Shown here: piece by piece, positions 13,354 to 36,034 of the stretch
How the letters are laid out: the number at the start of each line of letters is the position of its first letter
Numbering within the stretch: the stretch's first letter is position 1
Source of the DNA: Chitinophagaceae bacterium
GTDB lineage: Bacteria; Bacteroidota; Bacteroidia; Chitinophagales; UBA10324
NCBI GenBank assembly: GCA_947469485.1
Contig: CANIPU010000001.1
Coordinates: 232,001-296,000 of the forward strand
Reading direction: 5' to 3'
Length of the DNA: 64,000 nt
Made by a program: the position numbers and the translations under genes
Notes under the pieces: generated by a model
What the model was told of the DNA's origin: nothing
The model's input: only the letters and a program-made list of their open reading frames with translations
Database searches by the model: none

Positions 13354-13357
13354 TCAA

Positions 13358-16035: not shown

Positions 16036-16073
16036 CAGAATTTAAAATTCGATTTGACTATTATTTGATTTAT

Positions 16074-17471: not shown

Positions 17472-17547
17472 TTACACCTCAGTTGAAGTCAGCAAGCAAA
17501 GCTAATTCAAAGAATGTGTGGTAATAATATATAGGTAAGATTTAATA

Positions 17548-18705: not shown

Positions 18706-18706
18706 T

Positions 18707-19708
18707 TTATACAGCCAACCTTTTTTTTATTGTTTCAGAAATATTTTTCATGCGATGCAAATTCAATAGCAATGCACCGGCAATCTTAAAAGGGAAAATT
18801 AAAACATAAAACATAAAACCAAACAGTGGCATTTTAAGGTTCATTAAATTATAACCAACTGAATTCATATTGATTCGGCAAATTTTTTCACAGATATAAA
18901 GCTCACTTTTACTCAACCCGCCTCCTTTCCATGATTCAATCCGGTCTTTTCTAATTCCTTTTTTTTCAGCAATATCTTTTCCAATGGAAGAACCGACTTG
19001 AGGTACTTCTAACATTTCTTTGTCATATTTTATATTTAAGAAATTACAAATCTCATTTACAGTTGATTCAGGAGTATTAATTAAATCTTCAAATTTTACA
19101 ACAAGAAATCGACGATCATTTTTAAATTTTATCCCAGCTAAAAAAGCAGCATTCCACAACTTGCCGATTGTAAATGGGTGGTAATTAAACCATGCTCTGA
19201 CAGTTTCAAACCAACCGGCATGCTTACCGCCTAAAAATTTTCGTCGCCATTTATTTTTTTGAGACAGCATAACAGCTCTTGGGTCTCTTATAAGAAAAAT
19301 AAATTTTGACTCCGGAAAACTGGATAAGATTTCTTTTACATAAAATACATTCTGGGGTGTTTGCTTACAAGAAATATTTTTCTTATTTCTTATAGTCTCA
19401 TACTCTAATACCTTTTTATAAACTTCTAATCCAGTTAATTCTGAATTTTCAATTATTAAATCTGCTTCATTTTTAAAGTCTGACAGATGCCTTTTTGAAA
19501 AGTATCCCTCCCTTGAAATATTTAAAATTAACGAACAAAGTTCTACACCTGTGGGAACAGTGAGTTTTTTTTCAGTATCTGCCTTCGACCATAATTGCTC
19601 AAAAAAATGAATTTCAGGAAAGGTATGTACTTCTGAATTATTATTCAAAATCCTACCAAGCATAGTAGTTCCACTACGGCCATTCCCAATAATGAATATT
19701 GTCTTCAT
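18707..19708 (-). CDS. Sulfotransferase family protein (1 of 3)
   Basis: This 333-residue protein should transfer sulfate from PAPS to a hydroxyl or amine of a glycan or related acceptor. The 5'-phosphosulfate loop GNGRSGTTMLGRIL lies at residues 8-21, and the 3'-phosphate-binding IFLIRDPRAVMLSQKNKWR is in the middle. The WFETVRAWFNYHP stretch is typical of the Sulfotransfer_3 type. A C-terminal hydrophobic segment (about 295-315) may attach it to the membrane. It is directly followed by the DUF1972 glycosyltransferase gene. Its acceptor is unknown; the polysaccharide is the obvious candidate from context. Confidence 0.9.
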   Translation of the reverse strand: MKTIFIIGNGRSGTTMLGRILNNNSEVHTFPEIHFFEQLWSKADTEKKLTVPTGVELCSLILNISREGYFSKRHLSDFKNEADLIIENSELTGLEVYKKVLEYETIRNKKNISCKQTPQNVFYVKEILSSFPESKFIFLIRDPRAVMLSQKNKWRRKFLGGKHAGWFETVRAWFNYHPFTIGKLWNAAFLAGIKFKNDRRFLVVKFEDLINTPESTVNEICNFLNIKYDKEMLEVPQVGSSIGKDIAEKKGIRKDRIESWKGGGLSKSELYICEKICRINMNSVGYNLMNLKMPLFGFMFYVLIFPFKIAGALLLNLHRMKNISETIKKRLAV

Positions 19709-19771
19709 TCTTGTAATAATACTTTATCTTTTGAAAAAGGCCTTCAATTCAACTATATTACAATTATTTTC

Positions 19772-21826: not shown

Positions 21827-21916
21827 GTTTTAATTTAATGAGGCGAATGTAGGGGGGAAAGATGAAAAAGGAGGAAGGAATAAATAATCGCTGATAAATT
21901 TGAAAATAAGTTCAGT

Positions 21917-22882
21917 TTATTTTTTTAAGTATTCGAACATATTTTCAATTGTCTCATCTAAAGAATACTTCTGTTGCCAGCCTGTTTGAGTTTTGAGTTT
22001 TGTTGAGTCACCGTATATAATTGGTTCGTCGGTTGGGCGCAGGAGCGACTCGTCGGTTTGCAATATGAATTTGCGGTTGCAAACTTTTTCTATGACCTCA
22101 ATAACCTGATGCATGGAATATACTTTTTCGCCACTAATGTTATAAGCTTCGCCAGCAATTCCCTTTTCGGAAAGCAAAACGAGCGCGCTTACAAGATCGC
22201 GCACATCTGTAATGGCACGAAGCGAATCAAGGTTGCCTACGCGAAGTTTATCACTTTTACCATTGATAACTTCTAAAGCGCGCTGCACAAAATCGCTTAC
22301 TGCATCGTTTGTTTTTCGAGAACCTGTGGTATTGAAAATGCGCGCGCGAATGCCCCGAATTCCCTGGCCTTTGAAGTATTGGTAGGTTAGTAAATCCTGC
22401 GCAACCTTACTTACACCATAAGGGTGCAAAGGCAGAAGGTCGGCACTTTCTTTTATGGGAACATTTTGTGGAGTGAGTGAGGCACCGTATTGAGCACTGC
22501 TGCAAGCCACAACCACAACAGGATTGTATGCTGCGTCGATCTTTAGGACTGAAATTATTGCCTCGAATAAATTAATGGTTCCGTTTGCGTTAATGTCCAT
22601 GGTTTCAACCGGACGGAGCCAGCTAACAGTCGGGAAACTTTGAGCGGCAAGGTGAAATATTTTCCCAGGTTTGAATTCGTGAATTATTTTTTCAACGGCG
22701 ATTGCATTTCGAACATCAAGTTGAAGGGGCACACATAAATCAATAATATCGTTAAGCTTTATTGTAGGATTGAAATAGGTACCTATTAAAAATTCTTTTT
22801 TCACCTTGTCCGAATAGTATTCGAGCAGGTGTGAACCTACCATGCCTGCTGTACCGGTTATTAAAATGTGTTCTTTACTCAT
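21917..22882 (-). CDS. GDP-4-dehydro-6-deoxy-D-mannose reductase-like SDR (RMD)
   Basis: This is a 321-residue extended SDR enzyme. TGTAGMVGSHL binds NAD(P), SSAQYGASL holds the active-site Ser region, and YGVSKVAQDLL gives the catalytic Tyr-Lys pair. IFNTTGSRK, LRVGNLDSLRAITDVRD and the C-terminal LRPTDEPIIYGDSTKL closely follow the RMD family, which reduces the 4-keto group to make GDP-D-rhamnose or a related sugar. The partner GDP-mannose 4,6-dehydratase is not in this window. It overlaps the next glycosyltransferase gene by eight bases, so that transferase could use its product. GDP-mannose dehydratase activity is a less likely reading. Confidence 0.82.
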   Translation of the reverse strand: MSKEHILITGTAGMVGSHLLEYYSDKVKKEFLIGTYFNPTIKLNDIIDLCVPLQLDVRNAIAVEKIIHEFKPGKIFHLAAQSFPTVSWLRPVETMDINANGTINLFEAIISVLKIDAAYNPVVVVACSSAQYGASLTPQNVPIKESADLLPLHPYGVSKVAQDLLTYQYFKGQGIRGIRARIFNTTGSRKTNDAVSDFVQRALEVINGKSDKLRVGNLDSLRAITDVRDLVSALVLLSEKGIAGEAYNISGEKVYSMHQVIEVIEKVCNRKFILQTDESLLRPTDEPIIYGDSTKLKTQTGWQQKYSLDETIENMFEYLKK

Positions 22883-24044
22883 TGAGCGCTAAACTATAAA
22901 TCGCTTTTACTTTTTCGCCAATCAATTTCCACGAAAACTTTTCATTGGCTGTTTGTTTGGCTCCTGCTTTTAATTTTTCTTGTAATTGTTTGTTGGCTAA
23001 AAGGTTTTGCATTTTAATGGAAAGGTCATCTGGGTTTTCGGTTTGAAACAGAATTCCGTTTTGACCATCGGCAATGATGTCTTTAAAAACATCTAAGTCA
23101 CTTGCTACTATTGCGGCACCATAGTCCAGTGAGCGAATGAGCACACCACTTGAATAAATTTTTCTATACGGCAAGGCAACAATATCAGATGCTCGAAAAT
23201 AATATGGAATCATTTCGTTTGCTATGTACTCCAATCTCATAATACAATCGCCTTCCATATTGTTTTCGCGAATAATATTCAGAAATTCTGTTTCTTCTAC
23301 TTTCCAGGTTGGACCAGCAACCACTAATTGAACTTCTGAATTTTGTTTTCGAAGCTGCGCAAAAGCTTTCAAAAGCACATCAAGTCCTTTCACTTTTTTA
23401 ATCTGTCCGAAAAACAGAATAAGCTGTTTGTTTGTTGGGAGTTTTAATTTTTCTCTTGCTTCAGTTACTGAACAATTTGCAGCATAGAGAAAATCAGTAT
23501 CGCCATGCGGAACTTTGTGGATGTGCGAAGGAATAGTTTTTGAAAAATATTTTTCAACTGACTGTTTAGCGAAGTCAGAATGAACAATAATTCGGTCAAT
23601 TAGTTTTTCGAATTTTAAATATTTATCTGAATTAACTGTTGTTCCATATTTCTGAAAATCCTCAACATCGTGAATGGTTGTTACAATTTTAAAACCATTG
23701 TTCTTAAACATTCGAAGAATCAATAACTCAAGGCGCGAGAAATGATAAATGTTTGCATGAAGCACATTGTACCCTTTTGCCTTTGCATCTTGTAATGTTT
23801 TTCTGATTGCAAGTACATACCTGACACCTCTAATAATCTTTAATTCCTTTCCATATACCCGATTGAAAGTTTTTATAGTTTTAAACGAAAAAGGGAACTG
23901 TTCATCCAAGTGAGTTTCATCACATGTGTAAAATGATAATTCTATGCCAGCATCATTCACTGCTTTACACAAACCAAAATCATAAAATTCATTTCCTCGA
24001 TGCCCGCCAATTGGTTCTACAAAAGCTACTTTACTATTATTCAA
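22875..24044 (-). CDS. Glycosyltransferase family 4 (GT-B)
   Basis: This is a 389-residue GT4 enzyme. The N-terminal domain has ANIYHFSRLELLIL and VTTIHDVEDFQKYG. The C-terminal domain has LILFFGQIKKVKGLDVLLKA, VVAGPTWK and YRKIYSSGVLIRSLDYGAAI, where the second Glu of the usual E-x7-E motif is not obvious. It overlaps the RMD-like gene by eight bases and is separated from the glycosidase-like gene by 20 bases. It probably adds a sugar to the growing lipid-linked repeat; the overlap makes a GDP-linked 6-deoxyhexose a reasonable guess for the donor. Confidence 0.87.
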   Translation of the reverse strand: MNNSKVAFVEPIGGHRGNEFYDFGLCKAVNDAGIELSFYTCDETHLDEQFPFSFKTIKTFNRVYGKELKIIRGVRYVLAIRKTLQDAKAKGYNVLHANIYHFSRLELLILRMFKNNGFKIVTTIHDVEDFQKYGTTVNSDKYLKFEKLIDRIIVHSDFAKQSVEKYFSKTIPSHIHKVPHGDTDFLYAANCSVTEAREKLKLPTNKQLILFFGQIKKVKGLDVLLKAFAQLRKQNSEVQLVVAGPTWKVEETEFLNIIRENNMEGDCIMRLEYIANEMIPYYFRASDIVALPYRKIYSSGVLIRSLDYGAAIVASDLDVFKDIIADGQNGILFQTENPDDLSIKMQNLLANKQLQEKLKAGAKQTANEKFSWKLIGEKVKAIYSLALNE

Positions 24045-24064
24045 TCGTATGAATTTAAAAACAA

Positions 24065-25666
24065 TTAATTCTTAACCTCAAAACATCCTGTACTAAATCC
24101 AGGTAATTTTATTGCTGAAATATTTACTTTTTCTTCGGTCCATTTACACAACTCATTAATTTTAAATTCGGTTTGAAATTTTGTTGCTCCAAAACTAGAG
24201 TACAAACTCGGGCCTGAGAGGCAATAAAACTGAGAAGTTGAATTTATTTTTGATTTAGAATCTATAGTGATACCAGATAAAGAAATTTCATTCCCGGTTT
24301 TATTTACAAAATATATCCAATTGCTATTTGTTGTAGAATTGAAATATGAATAAAAAGAAATTTCAAGATCTGCGTTCTTACTGCCATTCTTTTTGACTTC
24401 AACAGAAGTCATTTTAGTTTTATCATTAAAAATATTTTTCATTAGTATATGAGAATAAAATGAGGTTCGCCTGATAATATCACCACCCACTGGATCCCTA
24501 TATGATTCATTTTTCCATGGTTGCAAAATTGTTGAGCTGGCTAATAATCCATTCGACATGCCAAAATAAGTTGCTGCTTCAATTAAATTATTTCTTTTAC
24601 CATTTTCTTTATTTAAAGTGTTATAGAATTCAGTAATGAATATTGCCTGCAACAAAGTATTACCATATGTTCCCTTGGTCATGGTTTGAGCAATGTTCCA
24701 TTCAGTTATATACATTTTTCTATCTGTACCAAATATTTTCTGGTAGTAATCAAATGAGTTTGATAAAAAACTCCCAGCCAATTCAGTAATATCTTCAGAA
24801 GCACAATCGAATATCTTATCAATTTCTTTCAATTCATCCTGACACTGCACAGGAATATAATAATGATTAATGTAGAAATCATACCACTTCTCTCTTGCAA
24901 CAACTTCATTCCAGTTTTTAAAATAATCGGAACTAGTTGAACTGTTTTCGTCATCGGCAATACGGGTAAATGGAGCAGCACAAATTCCGATTGGAATTTC
25001 AGGGAAGTATTTCTTTAATGAATCGGCAAATGGTTTACAAACCAACAAATATTTTTCAGGGCTGTTAATAATAGTACGGGCTTGTTTTAAATACATTTCA
25101 TTACCTAATTCTACGGCTTTAATAGTTACTCCCTGTCTTCGAATCTCTCTAAGTTGTTCATTTAATTCATGCGGTGTTCCGGTAATGATATTAGCAACAA
25201 CAATTAAATCTGCATTTATTCTTTTAGTCAATTCCATTTCCTTGTCAAAATATTTATAGTTGACGGTTTTCTTTTTATTAAAAAAATCCTGTTTAATAAA
25301 ATTCTCATATGACTTTTCATTTATTGCCTTTACCTCTGATTCAATATAGCCATATCCTAGTCCGTTCCAATGATAAAAAGTAGATAATCCTCCTCCTGGC
25401 CATCTCAACACATTCGGACTCATTTTATTTTCAAATTCAATCATTATTTTATCATCTTGTTTATCATTTAATGTAAAAGATATCTTTTCTGTTGCCATTC
25501 CAAAAACTGAAGGAACAACCTTAAAAGCAGATGAATTATTTATTGATAAGGATATTTCAACCCCTGAAAGAGGCACTGTATTTATTTGATCGACATTACA
25601 CTGAGGATTCATTATTGAAATCAACAAGGGAAGACCTGCTATTATTAAAATTCTGTTCAAAATCAT
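24065..25666 (-). CDS. Exported glycoside hydrolase-like protein, clan GH-A type
   Basis: This 533-residue protein has an N-terminal hydrophobic export segment. Cys23 follows it but lacks a good lipobox, so anchoring is uncertain. NVLRWPGGGLSTFYHWNG (about 85-102) resembles the barrel start of arabinofuranosidase-like families such as GH51 and GH79. The pair VELGNE (Glu190) and MYITEWN (Glu322) sits where clan GH-A enzymes place the acid/base and nucleophile, about 130 residues apart. A beta-rich C-terminal domain follows. Substrate is unknown. A secreted glycosidase inside a polysaccharide assembly locus may trim or release the polymer. I am sure of the general fold only. Confidence 0.65.
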   Translation of the reverse strand: MILNRILIIAGLPLLISIMNPQCNVDQINTVPLSGVEISLSINNSSAFKVVPSVFGMATEKISFTLNDKQDDKIMIEFENKMSPNVLRWPGGGLSTFYHWNGLGYGYIESEVKAINEKSYENFIKQDFFNKKKTVNYKYFDKEMELTKRINADLIVVANIITGTPHELNEQLREIRRQGVTIKAVELGNEMYLKQARTIINSPEKYLLVCKPFADSLKKYFPEIPIGICAAPFTRIADDENSSTSSDYFKNWNEVVAREKWYDFYINHYYIPVQCQDELKEIDKIFDCASEDITELAGSFLSNSFDYYQKIFGTDRKMYITEWNIAQTMTKGTYGNTLLQAIFITEFYNTLNKENGKRNNLIEAATYFGMSNGLLASSTILQPWKNESYRDPVGGDIIRRTSFYSHILMKNIFNDKTKMTSVEVKKNGSKNADLEISFYSYFNSTTNSNWIYFVNKTGNEISLSGITIDSKSKINSTSQFYCLSGPSLYSSFGATKFQTEFKINELCKWTEEKVNISAIKLPGFSTGCFEVKN

Positions 25667-25716
25667 TTATGATTATTTGTTTTTTTTAAAGTTAATTTTT
25701 TAACCTAATTATATTA

Positions 25717-26604
25717 TTACTGCCATGTATTAAGGTCTCGGTTCAACAATTTCTCAAGCTGTTTAATATCCGGGGTATATATCTGTTTCAAAAATTTCAT
25801 TGTTGCTTCATCAGGTAATTTCTTTTTATTCTTTGTAAGAATTATTGACTTAATTAAGTCTGAAATAAACTGTGGAAATAATTTCTTTAAAACCACACGG
25901 AGAAATTTAATCCTGTATATTGATCTAATCAAAGAATTTCTGGGTGTTTTGAAAGTATTATATTTTGCACTTGTATCTGTTTGAAAATCTGAATCAACAT
26001 CAAGAAATTCAAATATTCTCTTCACCTCATGAGGAGCATCGTTTTTAAAATCTTCAAAAAAAATAATCAAGACATTTTCTCTACCAAATAATTCAATATA
26101 TCGTTTGACTTGGTTATAATATAAGCCAAGTTCAATAAATTGCTGGTAGTACAATTTATTCAAATGTGAATCATCCTTTTTTTGAATAACATTTTCAAAA
26201 GTCAAGTCAACATATCCTAATTTATAATCCATGTTATAATGCGATATTGCTCTTTCTACAGGATTCCGTAACATTATAATTATCCGCGATTTCGGAAATG
26301 CATTCTTTATTTTAATTGCTGCTTCAGGATAAAATAAATATGACACACTCGCTTCTCCAATGGCTTTTTTATTTCCGGCTTTTTCAAAAAGAGAAATGTA
26401 TTCTTCTCGATTATTTATCCCTCTTTCATTATAATAAAGGTTCTGATTTAAGCTTGATTGATATGAAAAATAATTTGGCTCCTTAACAGATGACATAAAA
26501 ACCTGAGGGTGCGCTTCAAGATAGTGATATAAAGAAGTGGTTCCCGCCTTAGGAGCTCCGACAATAAAAAAATTTGGACTTAATTCAGAATTTGTATTAT
26601 TCAT
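25717..26604 (-). CDS. Sulfotransferase family protein (2 of 3), NDST-like
   Basis: This is a 295-residue sulfotransferase of the Sulfotransfer_1 type, reminiscent of heparan N-deacetylase/N-sulfotransferase domains. The PAPS 5' loop GAPKAGTTSLYHYL begins at residue 16. KEPNYFS contains the Lys-Glu pair common in this group, and IIIMLRNPVERAISHYNMDY forms the 3'-phosphate site. The C-terminus KQLEKLLNRDLNTW is also typical. It is soluble, with no signal. It lies 21 bases from the upstream membrane-protein gene and 50 from the glycosidase-like gene. A glycan intermediate is the likely acceptor, by context. Confidence 0.91.
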   Translation of the reverse strand: MNNTNSELSPNFFIVGAPKAGTTSLYHYLEAHPQVFMSSVKEPNYFSYQSSLNQNLYYNERGINNREEYISLFEKAGNKKAIGEASVSYLFYPEAAIKIKNAFPKSRIIIMLRNPVERAISHYNMDYKLGYVDLTFENVIQKKDDSHLNKLYYQQFIELGLYYNQVKRYIELFGRENVLIIFFEDFKNDAPHEVKRIFEFLDVDSDFQTDTSAKYNTFKTPRNSLIRSIYRIKFLRVVLKKLFPQFISDLIKSIILTKNKKKLPDEATMKFLKQIYTPDIKQLEKLLNRDLNTWQ

Positions 26605-26625
26605 ATTAAACAGTCAATAATATTT

Positions 26626-27945
26626 TCATTCGAGAGAATAATTTTTTTCAGTTTTATTCTCTCGGTAATAATAAAAATAGATAAGTGAAACAATTACGGT
26701 TGTTACTCCTGCTCCCGGATAAAAATAACTACCACCAGTTGGGATGCTTCTTATATAGAAAAACAGGAGATAATATTTTAATGCAACAAAAAAAGCATCA
26801 TTTGCTTTTTCTTTCACTTTTCTCATCCACCACATTGCTTGTAAATATTCGAATTGAACTACCAGAATACCGAATATCCCATAAATAAAATACGCGCCAA
26901 TAATCCCAAGATCTGAAGGATAAAATCTTCCATATAATCTTAAAGGTGAGCCCTCCCAGTTGTCATTCCATTTGCCATTCCCAAAAAAAATGGAACTGGG
27001 ATGCTTTGCATAATAAAGACCTATATAAATCACTTGTGTTATTCTGCTGTTGGCTGATTGATCAGTACTTTCTTCTCCCTGAAATACTTCAAGAATACTA
27101 CTATACATATCTGCAAAACGAGTAAAAATCTCTGGTTTAATTATAAAAATTATTCCTCCTAAAAAAATAAGGATGATTGTAAATAAAGATATGTAATACA
27201 ACTTTTTCTTAAATGAAACCTGAAAATAAAAATATACCATTGTCGTTCCGACTAATGAAGCAGTTAAAGCTCTTTTTTGATATTCAAAAACTATATAAGC
27301 TAGAAAAACCAGAACCGGAATTAAATATTTCCATTTATTAGTTTTAATAAAAACTATTAAGTAATAAAAATATGAGAAACTCATAAACATAATATCAAAC
27401 ATCCAACCGCACCCTTTTACAGAAGAACAATAAGCAAAACTTGTATCTAAAAATTTATGCGGGTCTAAAACAAAACCTAATAAAATATAAACTGGTAATT
27501 GAATCCATGATATACTAAGTATTATATCCCGAAGTTGATATAATGTAATTTTCTCCGTTTTTAACAGATAAAATATGAGAAAGGCAATAGTGGAATAAAA
27601 CCATAATTGTTGAGTAATTATTCCATAAAACAAAGGTTGTTTCCAATAAATATTTGCTACAATGGCAGAATAAAGTGGCATTGCTATCAATATGAAAATG
27701 TAAAGTCTTTCAAATCCATTCCAATTCTTTCTTTTAATAGTTTTATCTAAAAAATAAAAGCCCATAAAAGAAAAAGTAATCAGATATATAGTTGGGTCTG
27801 TAAATTTGATTAGAAAAAAAAGAGGGCTACGGGCAAGTGTACCAAAGGCTCCAATGAATAAAAGTCCAATCAATATCTTTTTTAAAGACTCGTTTTTCTT
27901 TGATTTTAATTCAGGAGTTATGTTTTCCAAATTTTCAATATTCAA
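26626..27945 (-). CDS. Polytopic membrane protein, probable Wzy-like polymerase or ligase
   Basis: This is a 439-residue protein with roughly ten to twelve membrane helices. A polar loop at about 275-345 contains SANSRITQVIYIGLYYAKHP, SIFFGNGKWND and LYGRFYPSDLGIIGAYFIYG. The GNGK...SDLGIIG arrangement recalls the periplasmic loop of O-antigen polymerases. It starts at TTG (27945), because no ATG occurs until well inside the first helices. It lies between a GT2 gene and a sulfotransferase gene. It is the third polymerase- or ligase-like protein in the locus. Family identity is weak by nature, so the exact role is open. Confidence 0.7.
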   Translation of the reverse strand: MNIENLENITPELKSKKNESLKKILIGLLFIGAFGTLARSPLFFLIKFTDPTIYLITFSFMGFYFLDKTIKRKNWNGFERLYIFILIAMPLYSAIVANIYWKQPLFYGIITQQLWFYSTIAFLIFYLLKTEKITLYQLRDIILSISWIQLPVYILLGFVLDPHKFLDTSFAYCSSVKGCGWMFDIMFMSFSYFYYLIVFIKTNKWKYLIPVLVFLAYIVFEYQKRALTASLVGTTMVYFYFQVSFKKKLYYISLFTIILIFLGGIIFIIKPEIFTRFADMYSSILEVFQGEESTDQSANSRITQVIYIGLYYAKHPSSIFFGNGKWNDNWEGSPLRLYGRFYPSDLGIIGAYFIYGIFGILVVQFEYLQAMWWMRKVKEKANDAFFVALKYYLLFFYIRSIPTGGSYFYPGAGVTTVIVSLIYFYYYRENKTEKNYSLE

Positions 27946-28019
27946 TTGACTTAAACCTTTTTCTTCTTTGACTAATGGTGTAAATGTAAATATTGAAGTA
28001 TTATAGTTAAGGTAACCTC

Positions 28020-29072
28020 TTAAACCTTTTCATTTATAACTGAGCAGTTTCTAAACCCAAACAATATCTTAAGAATTAACTTTGATTCATTAAAGTTTCC
28101 ATTGGCAAAACTTAAATTCATTTTTAAAAATAATCTTAACCATGCAATTGGATACAGAAACGGATAAAATTTCCAGTAAAATTTTAAAAGATTTGAATAC
28201 ATCAAACATGCTATAAATAACGGCTTTCTCTTTTTAATTTTTTTTCCTGTTGATACTCCTTGTTTATGGTAAACAATTGAATTCATACAAATGGCTGATT
28301 TATATCCATTTTTTTTTCCTCTAATTACCCAATCTAATTCCTCAAAATATAAAAAATAGTCCTCACTCATTAAGCCAACAGATTTTATATACTCTGAACT
28401 AAAAAATAATGATGCCCCATATGGATAATCAAAACGGAACTTTTCATTATCAAATTGTCCATGATCTTTCTGGTTCAATCCAATATGAAATGCATTAGTT
28501 GTGAAAAAATTAAACCTGTCGCCAACTGCTTGTATAATTTCAGGATTAGAATAAAATAAAATTTTACTCCCTATCAACCCAACCTCACTGCCATTTGATT
28601 TTGTATAAATAAAGTAATTTATGAGGTTACTTAAAGTGTCGTTTTTAATTACAGTGTCATTGTTAAGCAGCCATATATAATCCGCTGAAAATTGCATTAA
28701 ATATTTTATTCCAATATTATTTGCTGCAGCAAAACCAACATTATTTGAATTCTTAATTATCGTCAACTCATTTGCTTTAAAATGGTGTGAACTTTCAGAT
28801 AAATATGATTCGTTATTTCGGGCATAAATCAACTTAACTGATTCGGGTCTTCTATTGGACAAACAAGTCTGAAGCAGACCAGGGACTTGATATTTTGGAG
28901 TATATCCTCCTTTTACCCAGTTGCAAATTTTATCTATTGAATTATCATCTGCACTATTGTCTACCATTACTATTGATATATCTGAAATACTACTTGCCAA
29001 GATTGAGTCAATACATTCAATTGTATCATCTGGAGAATTATAATTAACTAATACAATACCTGTTAAAGGCAT
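28020..29072 (-). CDS. Glycosyltransferase family 2 (rhamnosyltransferase-like)
   Basis: This is a 350-residue GT-A enzyme of the WbbL/rhamnosyltransferase type. GIVLVNYNSPDDTIECIDS opens the protein. NNVGFAAANNIGIKY and YIWLLNNDTVI carry the nucleotide and metal site (the NND variant is normal in this group). FLYFEELDWVIRGKKNGYK holds the catalytic acid region. A roughly 40-residue stretch after residue 45 is longer than usual. The locus makes dTDP-rhamnose precursors, so rhamnose is a fair guess for the donor. A nine-A run in frame (RGKKNGYK) is harmless in this assembly. Confidence 0.88.
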   Translation of the reverse strand: MPLTGIVLVNYNSPDDTIECIDSILASSISDISIVMVDNSADDNSIDKICNWVKGGYTPKYQVPGLLQTCLSNRRPESVKLIYARNNESYLSESSHHFKANELTIIKNSNNVGFAAANNIGIKYLMQFSADYIWLLNNDTVIKNDTLSNLINYFIYTKSNGSEVGLIGSKILFYSNPEIIQAVGDRFNFFTTNAFHIGLNQKDHGQFDNEKFRFDYPYGASLFFSSEYIKSVGLMSEDYFLYFEELDWVIRGKKNGYKSAICMNSIVYHKQGVSTGKKIKKRKPLFIACLMYSNLLKFYWKFYPFLYPIAWLRLFLKMNLSFANGNFNESKLILKILFGFRNCSVINEKV

Positions 29073-29129
29073 ATTTGTTTTTTTTCCTTTTTCAATTGTG
29101 GTTAAGACTTTTATTAATTTTTATTGTTG

Positions 29130-30035
29130 CTAATAATTATTCCAACCCGAAAAATCTTTTTTAATAAGTGTACCTAAAGCATCATTACTTTTTGCAAAAT
29201 ATTTTTCATTCAATACTTTTTTCAATTTAATATCAAGAGGACTTAAGGGAGATTTTGTAGAATTCCAACTGAGTATTTTCTTTTTAATCGATTTTCTTAT
29301 TTCCTTATTTGAAATAACATTAGAAGCTAATTGTTTGAAAATATTTTTTCTGCTTACTAAATCCCTGATTCTTTCCGACTTAACTTCTGAAGCAATATTT
29401 TCTTTGATGTTAGTATTAAGTTTTACTTCAGATATATTTAAAAACAAAAATATTTTTTTCAAAGCACCTTCCAAATCTTTATTAAACTCTTCTTCATAAT
29501 TAAAAAAAAGAAAATTTTCTATTGGAAAAAATTTAAAATATCTTTTTAATTGTTCATCGTACATCCCCCTGCTTATATAACTAAAGTTGTTTTTTTCTTC
29601 GCGGCTATTTGATTTCAGTCTAGTCTGTTCTTGTTTAATTGCTTCATTGAAATTAAGAGTTTCAAAACCTTTTCTTACACTCATTAAGTAATGGGAATAG
29701 GCTCGATCCACAGGATTCCGGAGAATTACAATAAATTTTATACTTGCTCCTAAGTCCTTGAAAATTCTTTCAGGAACATATGGAAAATACAAATAGTCAG
29801 GATCGAATTCCCCTATTGCTTTTTTGGGGGTGTCGTAAGAAAAAAATTTAGAATAATATTCCAATCCTAAAGCATATTCCTCATCACGGTAAAAAAACTT
29901 TGTTTCCTTTCGAGGTTTACTAACTGTTATCTCAGGATGGTTTTTTAATATATGATATAAAGCAGTTGTGCCGGTCTTTTGTGCACCAATACACATGAAA
30001 TCAGGAAGGACTAACGGTACATTTTTCTTCATCAA
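29130..30035 (-). CDS. Sulfotransferase family protein (3 of 3), NDST-like
   Basis: This is a 301-residue sulfotransferase. The PAPS loop is IGAQKTGTTALYHIL at residues 16-30. The glycan-type SKPRKETKFFY has the conserved Lys-Glu pair, and FIVILRNPVDRAYSHYLMS forms the 3'-phosphate site. FNYEEEFNKD matches the later acidic stretch of the family. It ends with LIKKDFSGW, as in the paralogue at 25717. Its start overlaps the stop of the upstream flippase gene by four bases (ATGA-type), so sulfation and export genes are translationally coupled. The three sulfotransferases differ clearly, which suggests different acceptor positions. Confidence 0.92.
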   Translation of the reverse strand: MMKKNVPLVLPDFMCIGAQKTGTTALYHILKNHPEITVSKPRKETKFFYRDEEYALGLEYYSKFFSYDTPKKAIGEFDPDYLYFPYVPERIFKDLGASIKFIVILRNPVDRAYSHYLMSVRKGFETLNFNEAIKQEQTRLKSNSREEKNNFSYISRGMYDEQLKRYFKFFPIENFLFFNYEEEFNKDLEGALKKIFLFLNISEVKLNTNIKENIASEVKSERIRDLVSRKNIFKQLASNVISNKEIRKSIKKKILSWNSTKSPLSPLDIKLKKVLNEKYFAKSNDALGTLIKKDFSGWNNY

Positions 30036-31399
30036 ATCTGTTTAAGAAATCCTTTTTTACTAAATGAAAATATGTGTTTTACATCAAAAGTATAAAAACC
30101 AAAATACCGTTTAACAAGGAAATAAGGAATGACATTGTATAAAAAAACTCCAATGACATTTACAACTGAAGCACCAATAATACCATATTGCGGTATAACA
30201 AAGGCATTCAATGCAACAGTAAAAATCGTTGTGCCAATAACAATGTTCCTATTAACATCCTGTTTTCCAGTCATCATTAATAAATTTCCAACCGGACCAG
30301 TTGAAGCATTAATGAATTGCCCAAATGATAAAATCATCAATGCTAATTCACCAATTAGAAATTCTTTTCCAAAAATGCCCATGAAAAAATATGGGAAAAC
30401 AATAAAAAGTATAAGAATTGGAGCCGAAGTCCAAAAAATCAATTTAGTTGTATTCTGCACAACAATTGCAAGTCTTTTCATTTCACCTTTTGCATGTAAC
30501 TCTGCAATTTTTGGTGCAACTGTTAAGAGAAATGCAGTTAAGGTTAATGAAGTAATAGTTGCAATGCGAAATGCAACTTTGTAAACTCCAACATCGGCTT
30601 CAGTATAATACCTTCCTAAAAAAACAGTATCTGTCCACCCACGAACTACTTGTAATATTGCAGTTAAAAATAAGCTGAAAGCAATTTTGGTCTTTTCACC
30701 TAATACAATTTTTTCACCATCGCCTCCTTCCATAAACGGAGATTTATTCCACCAAAACCAAGCAGAAATTATAGAGGATATAAACACAGCGGTTACGAAT
30801 ATTATTACCGGAACATTCCGATCATGAATAATAAAATACGAAGCACATAATAGTAATCCAGTTATAGCTATTGTAAGAACATTCTGAAAAAATGAATAGA
30901 ACAATATTTTTTTCATGCCCCTGAAACAATCAGCATGAACTGAATGAAGAACAAAAGGCAAAATGGCGATTGAACTAATCTGAAAATACTTACCAAGTGT
31001 TGGTTTAAGAAATATATAAGTGGATATCCAATCGGAACTAAAATACAACACAAACGAACAAATTACGGATGCTGTGACATTTACCTTAATTACTTTAAAA
31101 TACAAATCTTTAATTGAGCCCCATTGATTTTTCGCATTGTATTGAGCAACTTCACGAACCATTAATATATCATATCCTAATTTTCCGAAATTGGCAAAAA
31201 ACTGAAACACAGTCTGGAAGATGGAATATATTCCACTGCCGGTTGCTCCATATAATCTTGCCAAAACAAAAACAAAAAGATAGTTGAACCCCATACCGGT
31301 TATCTTCATAACAAATGCAAATGCTCCGCCCTTAACAAGTTCTTTGTTATCCTGGTCCTTTACCTTTCCGAAAAATAGTCTGCGAATTTTTTTTATCAA
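30032..31399 (-). CDS. Wzx-type oligosaccharide flippase (second)
   Basis: This is a 455-residue polysaccharide-export/MATE-fold protein with about 14 hydrophobic helices. KGGAFAFVMKITGMGFNYLF, RLYGATGSGIYSIF and YDILMVREVAQY near the N-terminus are characteristic of flippases. It should translocate lipid-linked repeat units to the periplasm. It overlaps the downstream sulfotransferase gene by four bases and lies 22 bases from the upstream SGNH-type gene, so export, sulfation and acylation genes form one transcription unit. It is distinct from the flippase at 12076. Confidence 0.91.
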   Translation of the reverse strand: MIKKIRRLFFGKVKDQDNKELVKGGAFAFVMKITGMGFNYLFVFVLARLYGATGSGIYSIFQTVFQFFANFGKLGYDILMVREVAQYNAKNQWGSIKDLYFKVIKVNVTASVICSFVLYFSSDWISTYIFLKPTLGKYFQISSIAILPFVLHSVHADCFRGMKKILFYSFFQNVLTIAITGLLLCASYFIIHDRNVPVIIFVTAVFISSIISAWFWWNKSPFMEGGDGEKIVLGEKTKIAFSLFLTAILQVVRGWTDTVFLGRYYTEADVGVYKVAFRIATITSLTLTAFLLTVAPKIAELHAKGEMKRLAIVVQNTTKLIFWTSAPILILFIVFPYFFMGIFGKEFLIGELALMILSFGQFINASTGPVGNLLMMTGKQDVNRNIVIGTTIFTVALNAFVIPQYGIIGASVVNVIGVFLYNVIPYFLVKRYFGFYTFDVKHIFSFSKKGFLKQI

Positions 31400-31421
31400 T
31401 TCTTGAATATCATTTTAGGCA

Positions 31422-32420
31422 TTAATGCAAAACACTTTTTAGTTTTTCAGAAAGTATTGATGAAAAAAAAGTTGAACCCACTTTATTCATATGATTATCT
31501 GCAAAATATTCAATGTTATTGAAACGGCTATCATCAGTAAAGTCGAAGAAGGAAATATTGTGGCTGAGTGAGATCGACTCAATTAATTTATATACCGGAT
31601 CATCAGCATATTTTTTTAATACCGGTGACATAACCAGCACAACTTCTACCCGTTTTTGTTTACATAGGTTTATTATTCCTTTAAGAGATTTAACCTTATT
31701 CGGATCTATGTGTCTATTGCGCTCTCGTTTTATTGTCAATTCGAACTCCTCTATATATTTCTGCTTTTCACTTTCAGTAATTGTTTTATTCAAAGGAAGA
31801 TAACCGCTATCTGTTTTTTGCTTTTTAAATATTCCTTTTATTAAATCAAGCCACATCGAATTGTATCTATAAGATTGTGATAACAATTTAATTTTTTCAG
31901 TATTAAACGGAAACAATTTATAAGAAAATGATAAAGTATCTTCATTTCGAGTTCCTCTCCAATTAGCTATTTCTCTTATTTCCGGATAGTCGGAATAATA
32001 TGGAAGTAAAATATTTAACCGATCATAATGCACTTCTTTATAATACAGTTCTTCAGGAAACATTTCGACCACAATCATTTTAGGTAAGTGATGAGATAAA
32101 ATCATTTTAGTCATTGCATAACTGAATAGCAACGATTGCCCATCGTGTCCCGCGTTATAACAAGAGAGTTTTAATATATCGGATATCAGAGGAGTATTAT
32201 AATTCCGTCTGGCTTTTGATGATCCTGTAATTATCACATCTGCATTGACTTTTGTAAAACCAAAAGTGGTTTCATATTCAGGACCTGAGGCAGAACTGAA
32301 ATATAATTTATGCATAACTATTCCAACCAGCTGATCTAAAAGTATCAGTACTGCTAATAGCAGTAAAATTCGTTTTAGGAATTTAGTTTTAGAATTGGAA
32401 ATAGATGAATTGGCTTGCAT
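31422..32420 (-). CDS. Membrane-anchored SGNH-hydrolase-like protein, partner of MBOAT acyltransferase
   Basis: This is a 332-residue protein with one N-terminal transmembrane helix (about 16-36) and an extracytoplasmic domain. VIITGSSKARRNYNTP carries a GSS nucleophile candidate at 67-68 as in DltD/AlgJ/AlgX-type proteins. FADNHMNKVG near the C-terminus supplies the Asp308-x-His310 pair of the SGNH triad. Such proteins move acyl groups onto polymers outside the membrane together with an MBOAT. The start overlaps the MBOAT gene by 32 bases. If translation starts there the overlap is long, but no later ATG precedes the helix. The acyl group, probably acetyl, is inferred. Confidence 0.75.
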   Translation of the reverse strand: MQANSSISNSKTKFLKRILLLLAVLILLDQLVGIVMHKLYFSSASGPEYETTFGFTKVNADVIITGSSKARRNYNTPLISDILKLSCYNAGHDGQSLLFSYAMTKMILSHHLPKMIVVEMFPEELYYKEVHYDRLNILLPYYSDYPEIREIANWRGTRNEDTLSFSYKLFPFNTEKIKLLSQSYRYNSMWLDLIKGIFKKQKTDSGYLPLNKTITESEKQKYIEEFELTIKRERNRHIDPNKVKSLKGIINLCKQKRVEVVLVMSPVLKKYADDPVYKLIESISLSHNISFFDFTDDSRFNNIEYFADNHMNKVGSTFFSSILSEKLKSVLH

Positions 32421-33828
32421 CGAAAACTCCTGTTAGTAAAATGTAAATTATTATCGAACTATAAAAAGCAATTTTTAAACCACCTGATTTTGGTTCCGGA
32501 AGCGCATCACTTTTACTATAATATTCCTGGTAAATTTCAACAGCATAAAGTATTAACACCCCAATAACAGCATAAATAAATGTGCTTGTGTTGCCTAAAG
32601 ATAATGGTTCAGTACCAAAATTGAATAGTGATTTTAAAATAAACAATGCATCAGATAAATTATGTGCTCTGAAAAATGAAAATGGTATACAAATCATTAT
32701 AAAGGCTACTGCTGTATGCAATATATTATTCCATCGTTTGTTATGCTTTGACTCTAAGTTGCCGAAAACCCAATTTATTTGTTTTTTAAAATACAATCTG
32801 AAAACAAGCTGAGCACCGAATATGAAAAAACAAATTACAAAAGTCCAAGCCGCCCCATGCCACAATCCTGATAGAAAATAAACGATTAATAAATTAATTG
32901 CTCCACGATCTCTTCCTTTCCTATATCCTCCAAGTGGCCGAAATACATAATCCATAAACCAAGAGGTAAGTGAAATGTGCCATCGTTGCCATATTTCTCC
33001 AATAGATTTTGATAAATACGGCCGCTTAAAATTGGTCATTAATTTTATTCCCATTACCTGTGCAGCTCCAATTGCCATATCGCTATATCCTGAAAAATCA
33101 CAGTACAATTGCCAGGCAAAAAAGAAAAGACCAAACCAAAAAGTCAGGGTCTCTCCTTCATGCTGGTAAGGATAATCAAAAACATTTCCAACATAAGCAC
33201 CACATCTATCAGCAATAACCACTTTTTTAAATAACCCCCAAAGCATCAGTTTTAAACCGCTAACTATTCTGTCATAATCAAATAAATGTTCTTCTTTAAA
33301 TTGATGTAGTAAATTCTGCGGTCGTTCAATTGGTCCGGCAACCAATTGCGGATAAAACATTACATATAATGCGTATAACAATATATTTTTTTCTGGCTTT
33401 TGATTTCCTCTATATACTTCAATTGTATAACTCATTGCCTGAAAAGTGTGAAAGCTAAGCCCAATTGGCAATACCATGTTTAATAATGGTATATCAGGAT
33501 GCCATCCCATCATTCCAGCTAATCCTTCAATGTTCCCAACAAAAAAATTATAGTATTTAAAAATTGAAAGAACCCCAATATTGGCTATGATGCTAATGAT
33601 TAAAAAAAGTTTTCGCCTCTTTCCGTTAGCATTTTCAATTAATATTCCGGCGAAATAATCAATGAGTATTGTAAATAATAAAATAAGAATATACGATGGA
33701 ATGAAAAACATATAAAAAATGCAACTCGCAACAAGAAGCATTGTCCATCGTAAATTTTTAGGTAGAAGGAAGTATAATAATGTTACAACCGGAAAAAAGA
33801 TAATAAAGGCGAATGAGTTAAACAGCAT
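32389..33828 (-). CDS. MBOAT family O-acyltransferase (AlgI/DltB-like)
   Basis: This is a 479-residue polytopic membrane acyltransferase. The family-defining blocks are present: FYPQLVAGPIERP, FSGYSDMAIGAA, FKRPYLSKSIGEIWQRWHISLTSW with His284, and SGLWHGAAWTFV with the presumed catalytic His324. AlgI and PatA homologues pass acetyl groups from a cytoplasmic donor to an extracytoplasmic partner that acylates polysaccharide. The gene overlaps the SGNH-like gene by 32 bases, which strongly links them. It is the first gene of the minus-strand unit that begins after the 211-base divergent spacer to the ArsR-type gene. Confidence 0.94.
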   Translation of the reverse strand: MLFNSFAFIIFFPVVTLLYFLLPKNLRWTMLLVASCIFYMFFIPSYILILLFTILIDYFAGILIENANGKRRKLFLIISIIANIGVLSIFKYYNFFVGNIEGLAGMMGWHPDIPLLNMVLPIGLSFHTFQAMSYTIEVYRGNQKPEKNILLYALYVMFYPQLVAGPIERPQNLLHQFKEEHLFDYDRIVSGLKLMLWGLFKKVVIADRCGAYVGNVFDYPYQHEGETLTFWFGLFFFAWQLYCDFSGYSDMAIGAAQVMGIKLMTNFKRPYLSKSIGEIWQRWHISLTSWFMDYVFRPLGGYRKGRDRGAINLLIVYFLSGLWHGAAWTFVICFFIFGAQLVFRLYFKKQINWVFGNLESKHNKRWNNILHTAVAFIMICIPFSFFRAHNLSDALFILKSLFNFGTEPLSLGNTSTFIYAVIGVLILYAVEIYQEYYSKSDALPEPKSGGLKIAFYSSIIIYILLTGVFDASQFIYFQF

Positions 33829-34039
33829 ACCGGATTAAATACTGGCTTTTTGCGGAGGCGAAAATAGTCGGATGAAAGGAAATAAGATATTTAAGAATTA
33901 CAACAAATGACCGTTCGTTAGAAACAATCTCTAAAAAAAACTACATATTCTGAACAACCGTATATTTAAAATTTACTGTAATACAAAATATAAAACCTTT
34001 AGAAATAATTTTAAAGACCAAACGCTAAAAGCTTATATC

Positions 34040-34384
34040 ATGCAGGAAACTAATAAAGCGGATCTTTCAGGTTCAGCTGATTTTTCAAATGAATTTAATC
34101 TCTATAACCCCGATGAAACTCGGAAAGCTGCAAACATTCTTCGTGCAATGAATCATAAGTTACGCAGAAATATTTTATCCTTTATTGATAAAAAACAAAA
34201 AACAAATGTTACTGAAATTTACAATGCAATGGAAATTGAACAATCGGTAGCTTCACAGCATTTAGCAATTTTAAGAAGAGCAAAAATTGTTTCAACAAGC
34301 AGAATAGGCAAACAAATTATATACAGCGTCAACTATGACAGAATTGCCCAGTATTCTAAAAATGTAAAAGAACTACTTGCGTAG
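34040..34384 (+). CDS. ArsR/SmtB-type winged-helix transcriptional regulator
   Basis: This is a 114-residue DNA-binding protein. ILRAMNHKLRRNILSFI starts the winged helix. TEIYNAMEIEQSVASQHLAILRRA is the helix-turn-helix with recognition helix, and IVSTSRIGKQIIYSVN is the wing. It contains no cysteine, so it lacks the usual metal-sensing ELCVCDL box. It is divergent from the MBOAT gene across 211 bases and is the only obvious regulator inside the polysaccharide locus. It may control that operon, though I found no clear operator palindrome. Its TAG stop abuts the stop of the convergent cysQ. Confidence 0.9.
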   Translation: MQETNKADLSGSADFSNEFNLYNPDETRKAANILRAMNHKLRRNILSFIDKKQKTNVTEIYNAMEIEQSVASQHLAILRRAKIVSTSRIGKQIIYSVNYDRIAQYSKNVKELLA

Positions 34385-35167
34385 TTACCAGTTGCAGAGG
34401 AAATATGGATTCAATAAATTTTCCTTATTGTAAATAAGAGGCTTCATTGTTGTTACATCAATTACATGTCCTCCTGCTATTTCAATCACAGCCTGGCCAG
34501 CTGCCGTATCCCACTCCATTGTTGGTGCATACCGGGGATATACATCTGCAAGACCTTCCGCAAGCAAGCAAAATTTTAAAGAGCTACCAGCTGACACAAA
34601 ATCAATTTCCTTTCCGTCGGTCTTTAATTGTTGAATAAAAGACTCAGTTTCAGGATTCATATGACTACGACTTCCTATTACTCTGACTTTAGATATTGAA
34701 TTGAAATTAACACCATTTGTCAATTCACTTCTTTCATTTAATTTATTTATGCAAAAACAACCTTCTCCCTTTTTAGCACTCCACATTTTATTTAATGCCG
34801 GGGCATACACCACTCCTAATACTGGCTTTCCATTTTCAACTAAAGCTATATTAACAGTGAACTCCCCATTTTTCTTTATAAACTCTTTTGTTCCATCAAT
34901 TGGATCAATCAGCCAACAATGCGTCCATTTTTTTCTATCGTTATAATCAATGGTTTTAGTTTCTTCAGAAATAAAAGGTATCTCAGGGTAATAAAAATTT
35001 AATTCTTTAATAATTATTTCATTTGAAACTTTGTCAGCTTCTGTCAACGGAGATTTATTCTCTTTCATTTCAACAGTAAATTCTCCTTTATAAATTTCCA
35101 TTATTGATTCCCCTGCTTTTCGGGCAATATTTTCAATTAATTTCAATTCAATTTTTTCAACTATCAT
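34385..35167 (-). CDS. cysQ: 3'(2'),5'-bisphosphate nucleotidase
   Basis: This 260-residue inositol-monophosphatase-fold enzyme hydrolyses PAP (3'-phosphoadenosine 5'-phosphate) to AMP. The metal-binding triad is visible: ISEETK supplies the Glu, LIDPIDGTKEF the DPIDGT motif, and MEWDTAAGQAVIE the C-terminal WD. PAP is the product of every sulfotransferase reaction and inhibits those enzymes. A cysQ gene beside a locus with three sulfotransferases therefore fits a supporting role. It is three bases after rfbD and probably co-transcribed with it. No PAPS-making genes (cysD, cysN, cysC) are present in the window. Confidence 0.94.
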   Translation of the reverse strand: MIVEKIELKLIENIARKAGESIMEIYKGEFTVEMKENKSPLTEADKVSNEIIIKELNFYYPEIPFISEETKTIDYNDRKKWTHCWLIDPIDGTKEFIKKNGEFTVNIALVENGKPVLGVVYAPALNKMWSAKKGEGCFCINKLNERSELTNGVNFNSISKVRVIGSRSHMNPETESFIQQLKTDGKEIDFVSAGSSLKFCLLAEGLADVYPRYAPTMEWDTAAGQAVIEIAGGHVIDVTTMKPLIYNKENLLNPYFLCNW

Positions 35168-35170: not shown

Positions 35171-36034
35171 CTAATTAATAAGTTTTAAGCATTCAGCCAG
35201 ACTTTGTTTCCATAGTTTGGGATGTATGCCAAATGTTTTGATAATTTTTTGTTTGCTCATTACACTATATGCTGGCCGCTTTGCAGGTGTAGGAAACTGT
35301 GCAGTGGAAATTGGATGAACCGGTGTTTCTATTCCCTTTAACAAAAAAATTTCTTTAGCAAAATCAAACCATGATATTTCACCTTCATTACTGAAATGAT
35401 ATATCCCCCAAGGCTTTAATGCATCACTTAACAATGTAATTTTTAATAGCGCATCAGCTAAATCACGCGCATAGGTAGGGCAGCCAAACTGATCATTCAC
35501 AACTCGCAACTCAGGCCTTTCGTTTCCTAGCCGCAACATTGTTTTAACAAAATTATTTCCATAAGAAGAATAAACCCAGGAGGTTCGAACGATAATAGTC
35601 TTTGTGTGATTTTTTAATGCAAGAATTTCTCCCTCAAGTTTTGATTTAGCATATACCCCTAAAGGGTTTGTTTCATCTGTTTCTAAATATGGTTGTGCTT
35701 TTCTCCCATCAAATACAAAATCGGTTGATACATGAATAAAAGGAATATTAATTAAGTTGCATGCTTCAGCCAGGTAACCGGTTGCAGTAGCATTAACAAG
35801 CGTAGCTGCTTCTTGTTCTGATTCGGCTTTATCGACAGCTGTATATGCCGCGCAGTTAATAACTGCTTTGGGTTCGTTATCGATAAAATATTTTCTTACG
35901 GCCTCTCTATTTGTTATATTCAGTTCATCTTTCCCGGTAAACAAAATATTTAGTGATGGAAAGCTTGTTGCAATTGCACGAATTTCATTTCCCAACTGCC
36001 CATTTGCTCCGGTAACTAAAATTGTTTTTTTCAT
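35171..36034 (-). CDS. rfbD: dTDP-4-dehydrorhamnose reductase
   Basis: This 287-residue SDR enzyme performs the last step of dTDP-L-rhamnose synthesis, NAD(P)H reduction of the 4-keto group. The NAD site is TGANGQLGNEI, the family block NCAAYTAVDKAESE follows, then HVSTDFVFDG, and YAKSKLEGE holds the catalytic Tyr-Lys. RTSWVYSSYGNNFVKTML and the C-terminal RPAYSVMSKQKI are typical. It lies between rfbC (29 bases upstream) and cysQ. The thymidylyltransferase rfbA is not in the window. Confidence 0.95.
   Translation of the reverse strand: MKKTILVTGANGQLGNEIRAIATSFPSLNILFTGKDELNITNREAVRKYFIDNEPKAVINCAAYTAVDKAESEQEAATLVNATATGYLAEACNLINIPFIHVSTDFVFDGRKAQPYLETDETNPLGVYAKSKLEGEILALKNHTKTIIVRTSWVYSSYGNNFVKTMLRLGNERPELRVVNDQFGCPTYARDLADALLKITLLSDALKPWGIYHFSNEGEISWFDFAKEIFLLKGIETPVHPISTAQFPTPAKRPAYSVMSKQKIIKTFGIHPKLWKQSLAECLKLIN

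Follow-up and report, generated by a model that had tools for sequence, protein, structure and literature searches.

The stretch of DNA considered here, called the window, comprises 64,000 nucleotides from a Chitinophagaceae bacterium (assembly GCA_947469485.1, contig CANIPU010000001.1, positions 232,001 to 296,000) and carries on its minus strand, from 40965 down to 8582, a polysaccharide locus with three sulfotransferase genes, denoted ST1, ST2 and ST3. All coordinates are window positions unless a contig (C) or locus (L) label is given. A first-pass annotation had read this region as the probable source of a sulfated exopolysaccharide. Comparison with related genomes now indicates that the gene cluster has long been conserved within a poorly known group of Chitinophagales and that its product is very probably a surface sugar polymer decorated with sulfate.

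Read from 40965 downwards, the locus begins with genes for Wza, a Wzz-like protein, CpsB, RmlC, RmlD, CysQ, an MBOAT protein, an SGNH-like protein, the flippase Wzx2 and ST3. These are followed by a GT2-type glycosyltransferase, a Wzy-like protein, ST2, a putative hydrolase, a GT4-type glycosyltransferase, a short-chain dehydrogenase/reductase (SDR) and an M13 peptidase, then by ST1, a DUF1972/GT4 glycosyltransferase, a WcaJ-type initiating transferase, a Wzi-like protein, a GFO/IDH/MocA oxidoreductase, a second flippase Wzx1, a further GT4, a second Wzy-like protein and a GT2. Upstream of the locus, at 41070-47564, lie RmlB and nucleotide-sugar dehydrogenases. The individual features are:

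42044..43099, minus strand: RmlB, dTDP-glucose 4,6-dehydratase (TIGR01181 474.5 bits, cut-off 365.1).
38524..40965, minus strand: Wza/OPX-type outer-membrane export protein (Poly_export 69.6 bits, SLBB 116.1 bits).
37431..38513, minus strand: Wzz-like co-polymerase (Wzz 21.9 bits, under the 25.5 cut-off; the orthologue adjoins Wza in relatives).
36639..37154, minus strand: CpsB/CapC-type phosphatase (CpsB_CapC 96.1 bits).
36064..36636, minus strand: RmlC (dTDP_sugar_isom 235.6 bits).
35171..36034, minus strand: RmlD (RmlD_sub_bind 358.9 bits).
34385..35167, minus strand: CysQ, 3'-phosphoadenosine 5'-phosphate (PAP) phosphatase (TIGR01331 293.6 bits, cut-off 228.8).
32389..33828, minus strand: MBOAT O-acyltransferase (MBOAT 93.7 bits; a core member in relatives).
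31422..32420, minus strand: SGNH-like partner, probably a periplasmic O-acetyltransferase (comes after MBOAT in the family's loci).
30032..31399, minus strand: Wzx2 flippase (Polysacc_synt 66 bits, MatE 41.8).
29130..30035, minus strand: ST3, heparan-sulfate-type sulfotransferase, 301 amino acids (Sulfotransfer_1 71.3 bits).
28020..29072, minus strand: GT2-type glycosyltransferase (Glycos_transf_2 45.3 bits).
26626..27945, minus strand: Wzy2, putative polymerase-like membrane protein (six hydrophobic segments; position near GT2 and ST2 kept).
25717..26604, minus strand: ST2, heparan-sulfate-type sulfotransferase, 295 amino acids (Sulfotransfer_1 77.6 bits).
24065..25666, minus strand: putative secreted clan GH-A-like glycoside hydrolase (N-terminal hydrophobic segment; low-confidence fold match).
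22875..24044, minus strand: GT4-type glycosyltransferase (Glycos_transf_1 92.9 bits).
21917..22882, minus strand: SDR nucleotide-sugar dehydratase/epimerase (GDP_Man_Dehyd 186.6 bits; no equivalog over cut-off).
18707..19708, minus strand: ST1, Sulfotransfer_3-type, C-terminal hydrophobic segment, 333 amino acids (Sulfotransfer_3 95.2 bits).
17548..18705, minus strand: DUF1972/GT4 glycosyltransferase, Cps2T-like (DUF1972 66.5 bits; Cps2T rhamnosyltransferase model 202 bits, far under the 500 cut-off).
16074..17471, minus strand: initiating hexose-1-phosphate transferase (PHPT, WcaJ type; TIGR03023 443.4 bits, cut-off 410.75).
14401..16035, minus strand: outer-membrane protein, Wzi-like by eye, a name presumed from sequence features (no match in Pfam or NCBIfam; homologues adjoin PHPT in genomes G007 and G042).
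12076..13353, minus strand: Wzx1, second flippase (Polysacc_synt_3 81.4 bits).
9604..11028, minus strand: Wzy1, putative second polymerase-like protein (ten hydrophobic segments).

Profile matches thus identify Wzx, PHPT and OPX proteins, the marks of a Wzx/Wzy pathway, at this locus. Its genes fall into two blocks, a conserved core (about 21917-33828) that contains ST2 and ST3, and a second block at 8582-19708 with ST1, the initiating transferase, Wzx1 and Wzy1; since the sulfotransferase genes span both, one polymer for all three is not proven. The first-pass annotation had placed them among glycosyltransferases, a flippase and polymerase-like proteins, a description that holds except that there are two flippases and that ST1 stands in a separate block from ST2 and ST3. 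Both of the close gene contacts it described are present: the ST3 gene overlaps the flippase gene at 30032-31399 by four bases if read from a TTG start or by one base from the next ATG (TGATG), and a single base separates the ST1 gene from the glycosyltransferase gene at 17548-18705.

The three genes at 18707, 25717 and 29130 are indeed distinct sulfotransferase genes, each over the Pfam cut-offs (PF00685/PF13469), and their intact reading frames rule out pseudogenes. Each protein has a P-loop-like motif for the sulfate donor 3'-phosphoadenosine 5'-phosphosulfate (PAPS) near its N-terminus together with an RDP/RNP motif, namely GAPKAGTT and RNPVERAIS in ST2, GAQKTGTT and RNPVDRAYS in ST3, and GNGRSGTT and RDPRA in ST1, which we take to serve as the 5'-phosphosulfate loop and the 3'-phosphate site. 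Sequence searches of the PDB returned the bacterial sulfotransferase 3rnl first for both ST2 and ST3, followed for ST2 by the heparan sulfate 3-O-sulfotransferase (3-OST) 3-OST-3 and NDST1, and for ST3 by 3-OST-5, -1 and -3 and NDST1. The conserved catalytic glutamate of the animal 3-OSTs has its counterpart in E84 of ST2 and in E76 of ST3, and these residues are invariant in the orthologues of both; the GAQK.GTT and GE patterns of ST3 (17 aligned sequences) and the motifs of ST2 (11 aligned sequences) are invariant as well. By sequence, ST2 and ST3 belong with the heparan sulfate 3-O-/N-sulfotransferases.

A predicted model of ST3 (mean predicted local distance difference test, pLDDT, 85.9, from 17 aligned sequences) superposes on 3rnl with Z 27.2 and on the 3-OST/NDST structures with Z 22.7-24.8, all others listed being at or below 14.9, with tyrosylprotein sulfotransferases (TPSTs) at about 13, cytosolic SULTs at about 10-12 and Stf0 at 10.0. 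The predicted fold is thus of the 3-OST/NDST type rather than that of SULT or TPST. ST1 is more distant, and its closest PDB sequences are CurM-like and SULT-type with weak scores. The gathering of these genes by chance was ruled out: with six PF00685 matches in the 3.08 Mb genome, simulation gave p ~7e-4 for three sulfotransferases within 11.3 kb, and conservation in relatives is the stronger evidence.

Further sulfotransferase genes were seen elsewhere in the same genome (G000). One, at L014:4093-6636 (C2, ~105-107.6 kb), encodes an 847-amino-acid fusion of a type I phosphodiesterase/sulfatase-like region, TPR repeats and a C-terminal sulfotransferase, possibly combining sulfate removal and addition in one chain. 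At L013:4216-7125 (C11, ~60-63 kb) two adjacent Sulfotransfer_3 genes stand beside a GT4-type glycosyltransferase and may form a second sulfation locus.

ST3 was sought at an E threshold of 0.001 in 149 genomes including the window's own, the related ones being largely metagenome assemblies by their record titles, and was matched in 68. A match was found in each of the 15 same-family relatives; in 14 it reaches at least 37% identity and is part of a cluster, and the other, G007, has only a 34% match outside any cluster. In all 14 cluster-bearing family relatives the ST3 orthologue comes directly after Wzx, and where contigs allow, the core order is kept as MBOAT, SGNH-like, (ST), Wzx, ST3, (ST, ST), GT2, Wzy-like, (ST), ST2, GT4, SDR, with additional sulfotransferase positions in brackets. 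In G003 and G010 ST3 is separated from GT2 by a sulfotransferase belonging to a different group, and the G003 cluster lacks ST2. Wza and Wzz accompany the cluster in relatives. A second family, f13 (G042, G054, G066 and G076), has a related cluster in which the order differs and extra genes are present. One protein of 243 amino acids is conserved inside the f13 clusters (L058:14841-15572, L052:14536-15267 and L051:2968-3699); the one copy scanned has no Pfam match, and by eye it resembles the start of Golgi-type sulfotransferases.

Sulfation also depends on donor supply. The search for cysD, cysN and cysC proposed in the first-pass annotation was answered in part, with cysC (208 bits) and cysD (150 bits) found by profile next to each other on contig C8, and cysN assigned by position and a GTPase-like start only, in a following open reading frame of 421 amino acids that can be read as CysN-like. 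This cysC is the single adenosine 5'-phosphosulfate (APS) kinase gene in the genome. A cysC gene occurs in 15 of the 16 family genomes, the one lacking it being 74% complete, and in G001 it lies on the cluster's own contig, ~11.6 kb past the cluster. The only other PAPS_reduct match besides cysD is CysH on C23, whose CC...CxxC pattern we take as a mark of iron-sulfur APS reductases; PAPS may then not be needed in sulfur assimilation, and it is suggestive, if no more, that assimilation bypasses PAPS and CysC serves sulfation. The presence of cysQ in the locus was borne out, the gene at 34385-35167 being the sole TIGR01331 match over cut-off in the genome, with one weaker paralogue, under cut-off, adjoining cysH. 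CysQ stands just before MBOAT in seven of the ten family relatives whose contig spans that spot. Sulfatases were considered as a clue to polymer recycling and set aside, the six PF00884 matches in the genome being uninformative either way; four are in frames of ~630-720 amino acids which could, we presume, be phosphoglycerol transferases.

Taken together, the gene families, the predicted fold class of ST3, the PAPS-synthesis genes, CysQ and the conserved order make it likely that the product of the locus is a Wzx/Wzy-type surface polysaccharide that carries sulfate and probably also O-acyl groups and rhamnose; the sulfated polysaccharide of the first-pass annotation is to that extent upheld. 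The substrate, the lipid-linked timing, the acyl group and the roles of the Wzy-like proteins and the hydrolase are what we infer in the scheme that follows. PAPS would be made by ATP sulfurylase (CysD together with the CysN-like protein) and CysC, whose genes lie on contig C8. Assembly would begin with transfer of a hexose-1-phosphate to undecaprenyl phosphate by the WcaJ-type transferase, the GT2 and GT4 enzymes adding further sugars. The soluble ST2 and ST3, along with ST1 and a fourth enzyme encoded at C1:206 kb, would sulfate the lipid-linked unit in the cytosol, the inhibitory by-product PAP being removed by CysQ, and Wzx2, encoded next to ST3, would flip the sulfated unit. The MBOAT and its SGNH-like partner would then acylate, a Wzy-like protein polymerise, Wzz set length and Wza export, and the secreted clan GH-A-like hydrolase, found in some congeners, may trim or clear the polymer.

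PAPS is cytosolic, Wzy polymerisation comes after flipping, and no hydrophobic, export or membrane segment was found in ST2 or ST3; sulfation on the undecaprenyl-linked unit, before flipping, is for these reasons the most likely timing, and extracellular sulfation by ST2 and ST3 was rejected. The first-pass annotation had likewise proposed sulfation before flipping, from the cytosolic look of the enzymes. ST1 has a C-terminal hydrophobic segment at residues 297-315. The tight pairing of Wzx and sulfotransferase genes fits a flippase that takes sulfated units. In the alginate system an MBOAT-type protein and an SGNH-like partner acylate in the periplasm, and the pair in the window suggests, by analogy, a similar periplasmic step; the SGNH-like protein itself has no Pfam match, and one orthologue matches ALGX weakly (20.2 bits against a cut-off of 26.5).

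Several points weigh against this interpretation. The Wzy-like proteins at 26626 and 9604 have the hydrophobic character and the gene position of a polymerase, and neither matches a Pfam or NCBIfam family. CysQ lies away from the core in G003, G004 and G005, and APS and PAPS reductases are not separable by the CysH motif alone. PF00685 also spans enzymes that act on lipids and small molecules. ST1 was not found at E 0.001 in the five congeners G001-G005, which puts it outside the genus core, and the window carries two Wzx/Wzy pairs.

With two flippases and two polymerase-like proteins, two polymers are possible: one sulfated polysaccharide would come from the core (ST2, ST3, Wzx2, Wzy2), and a second polymer from the block at 8582-19708 (ST1, PHPT, Wzx1, Wzy1). 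That the congeners have the core without ST1 speaks for this, as does G007, which lacks the core and has an ST1 homologue with glycosyltransferase, PHPT and Wzi-like homologues in the window's order. Against it, ST1 orthologues (50-55% identity) adjoin the core in all six family members that have them, 0.5-6.2 kb from its SDR end, and no second flippase was seen within the examined flank in those six. We regard two polymers as a real, if lesser, possibility.

The kind of product is a separate matter. An O-antigen-ligase-like gene (Wzy_C, 54 bits) adjoins the locus at 7334-8593, and the early cytosolic steps would be identical if the product were a sulfated O-antigen or glycolipid on lipid A instead of a free or capsular polysaccharide. 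Wza/OPX, Wzz and CpsB serve capsule or exopolysaccharide export, and the presence at the locus of Wza/OPX, the Wzz-like protein and CpsB, the first two also in relatives, makes a lipid A-linked product unlikely. That the neighbourhood is incidental, and the true substrates of the sulfotransferases are unrelated small molecules, lipids or proteins, is very improbable: the placement of these genes inside a polysaccharide cluster is kept across one family and into a second, and the predicted model of ST3 has a glycan-type fold, even though PF00685 is broad, ST1 has only weak CurM-like and SULT-type neighbours in the PDB, and rhizobial and mycobacterial sulfotransferases are described as modifying lipo-oligosaccharides (PMC8205485).

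Under the favoured reading of a sulfated Wzx/Wzy polysaccharide, the number of sulfotransferases deserves attention. The window's genus has two in the core, and seven of the 14 cluster-bearing relatives have six clustered sulfotransferases in separate orthologous groups, contained in one stretch in G006, G008, G011, G012, G013 and G015 and spread over two contigs in G014, where one gene is cut at the contig end. In G008 all six, and the ST1 orthologue, are over Pfam cut-offs. A maximum-likelihood tree of 73 sulfotransferases, built from frames of at least 215 amino acids (leaving out shorter ones such as the 202-amino-acid G014 fragment) and excluding ST1 of the window and its relatives, resolves the clustered enzymes into orthologous groups that follow gene position, most of them strongly supported, with the ST3 group and others extending into f13. 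The displaced fourth sulfotransferase of the window's genome (C1:206 kb, L012), outside the window, falls in a group that is represented within the cluster in G003, in G010 and in the six-enzyme genomes, whereas G001 and G005 have a copy outside it, among similar neighbours; the window species therefore seems to have a reduced, partly displaced set.

Of the 73 tree rows, 62 show the P-loop pattern and all 73 the second motif. Among the 11 rows without a P-loop match, eight make up a single orthologous group, in which the variant GKSATRS occurs, and three are shortened frames. The glutamate pattern, built around ST2 and ST3, was found in 57; it misses the C1:206 kb group among others and is little informative for them. 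The GKSATRS group (L054:12210-13106 and orthologues in seven other family genomes), in which this sequence replaces the usual GK.GTT, keeps a conserved position next to Wzx.

In G008, G011 and G013 the cluster has a single gene each for PF00534 and PF00535. The nearest further match to either on the same contig is >340 kb away in G008 and ~180 kb away in G013, G011 having none, and the initiating transferase is located elsewhere. Two extending glycosyltransferases are a lower bound, the search having covered PF00534 and PF00535. In the synechan system of Synechocystis PCC 6803, the stoichiometry of sulfate and sugar is described as roughly tracking gene number in the xss cluster (PMC8205485), and by that rule an unusually high sulfate content would be expected of the polymer from the six-enzyme clusters. 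Our boldest reading, this one is drawn from gene counts alone. Taken further, a very short repeat (two extending glycosyltransferases and the initiating one) with six or seven sulfotransferases would approach heparin-like charge density, sulfation being coupled to export by a Wzx-adjacent sulfotransferase that finishes the unit and a Wzx that accepts only sulfated units, a checkpoint spread by Wzx-sulfotransferase pairs across Bacteroidota and some Pseudomonadota; we offer this as speculation that is rather doubtful.

How far, then, does this cluster resemble known systems? Animal heparan sulfate sulfotransferases reside in the Golgi membrane and modify chains that are already complete. The 3-OSTs and NDST1 share with ST3 and ST2 the fold (as predicted for ST3), the PAPS motifs and the aligned glutamate, but the bacterial proteins are short and have no hydrophobic segment. 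Cobetia and Vibrio, both Gammaproteobacteria, make sulfated capsules. Their structures are established in Cobetia marina KMM 1449 (PMC11766843) and Vibrio sp. KMM 8419 (PMC11641403), and the gene clusters, as described, hold PAPS-synthesis and sulfotransferase genes, with CysQ in Cobetia (PMC11766843) as in the window, yet they belong to an ABC-transporter route with no Wzx-linked repeat unit.

The nearest known Wzx/Wzy systems, as far as the published accounts cover them, are synechan and the wps-1 cluster of Actinoplanes missouriensis. Synechan likewise comes from a Wzx/Wzy-type cluster with sulfotransferases, its sulfation being chemically shown and the window's predicted from genes alone; it is cyanobacterial and pairs two sulfotransferases with eight glycosyltransferases, where the clusters of the present family reach six or seven with two, and the passages on it mention neither CysQ nor MBOAT/SGNH, both found in the window locus (PMC8205485). 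The wps-1 cluster is described as having Wzx, Wzy, Wzz, two sulfotransferases, one of heparan-sulfate type, and a glycoside hydrolase, and both sulfotransferase genes are needed for normal sporangia; unlike the window locus, it is from an actinomycete, its hydrolase is assigned to GH26 and it has only two sulfotransferases, with predicted sulfation (PMC13390465). Pontiella is reported to have one putative glycosaminoglycan sulfotransferase gene in a glycosyltransferase cluster (PMC7356697). With synechan and wps-1 on record, the kind of system is known and this cluster is a variant, the unusual points being the extreme sulfotransferase count and the pairing of sulfotransferase and flippase. 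In the open-access PMC literature, with subscription papers and preprints outside its scope, we found no report of a sulfotransferase-rich Wzx/Wzy cluster in Bacteroidota.

The conserved gene set may help where such polymers have been seen before their genes. A 2023 study measured sulfated glycosaminoglycan-like material in granular sludge, the producing genes being unclear; it is described as finding few matches with reference sulfotransferases and calling the bacterial pathways not well known (PMC10483923). A defined gene set that predicts a sulfated polymer would be of use here, and heparin-type bacterial sulfotransferases acting on lipid-linked units, if confirmed as such, would be useful for making defined sulfated glycans.

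A profile scan of genome contigs with the ST3 alignment, which being seeded by ST3 gives spread and not frequency, retained 79 loci, many from Bacteroidota and others, by record titles, from Gammaproteobacteria, Desulfuromonas and further groups. In 44 of the 79 a Wzx is matched at more than 90 bits, and in 30 the start of a sulfotransferase gene is no more than 400 bases from the point where a Wzx-like gene ends, some contigs ending within the locus. Wzx-sulfotransferase loci occur in named isolates of Xanthomarina, Winogradskyella, Formosa and Allomuricauda, making the prediction testable. ST3-like genes also appear under archaeal labels, in L078 (Thermoplasmata, 45%), a short contig that may be contamination, and in L109 (Candidatus Harpocratesius, 36%). 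Record names suggest lake or groundwater sources for some relatives; we infer that some labels correspond to the Rimov and other lakes whose sampling is described in PMC11039613. If these sources are true, sulfated polymers extend beyond the saline settings stressed for cyanobacteria (PMC8205485).

The putative hydrolase at 24065-25666 was modelled from four sequences with pLDDT 55.5. Foldseek matched the model to GH51, GH44, GH79 and GH30 folds, with E from 4e-11 and template modelling (TM) scores of at most 0.36 by query length, and E190 and E322 are invariant in the four homologues. Given this low-confidence model, clan GH-A membership was dropped as proof and kept as a putative assignment.

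A lone ArsR-type helix-turn-helix gene lies on the opposite (plus) strand at 34040-34384, between CysQ and MBOAT, and is a possible regulator of the locus. Further upstream, at 49237-57231 on the minus strand, the window carries an export system of ABC-2, HlyD and outer-membrane-efflux components, and these genes also occur in the congener G003, where they adjoin the sulfotransferase cluster on the far side of the M13 peptidase.

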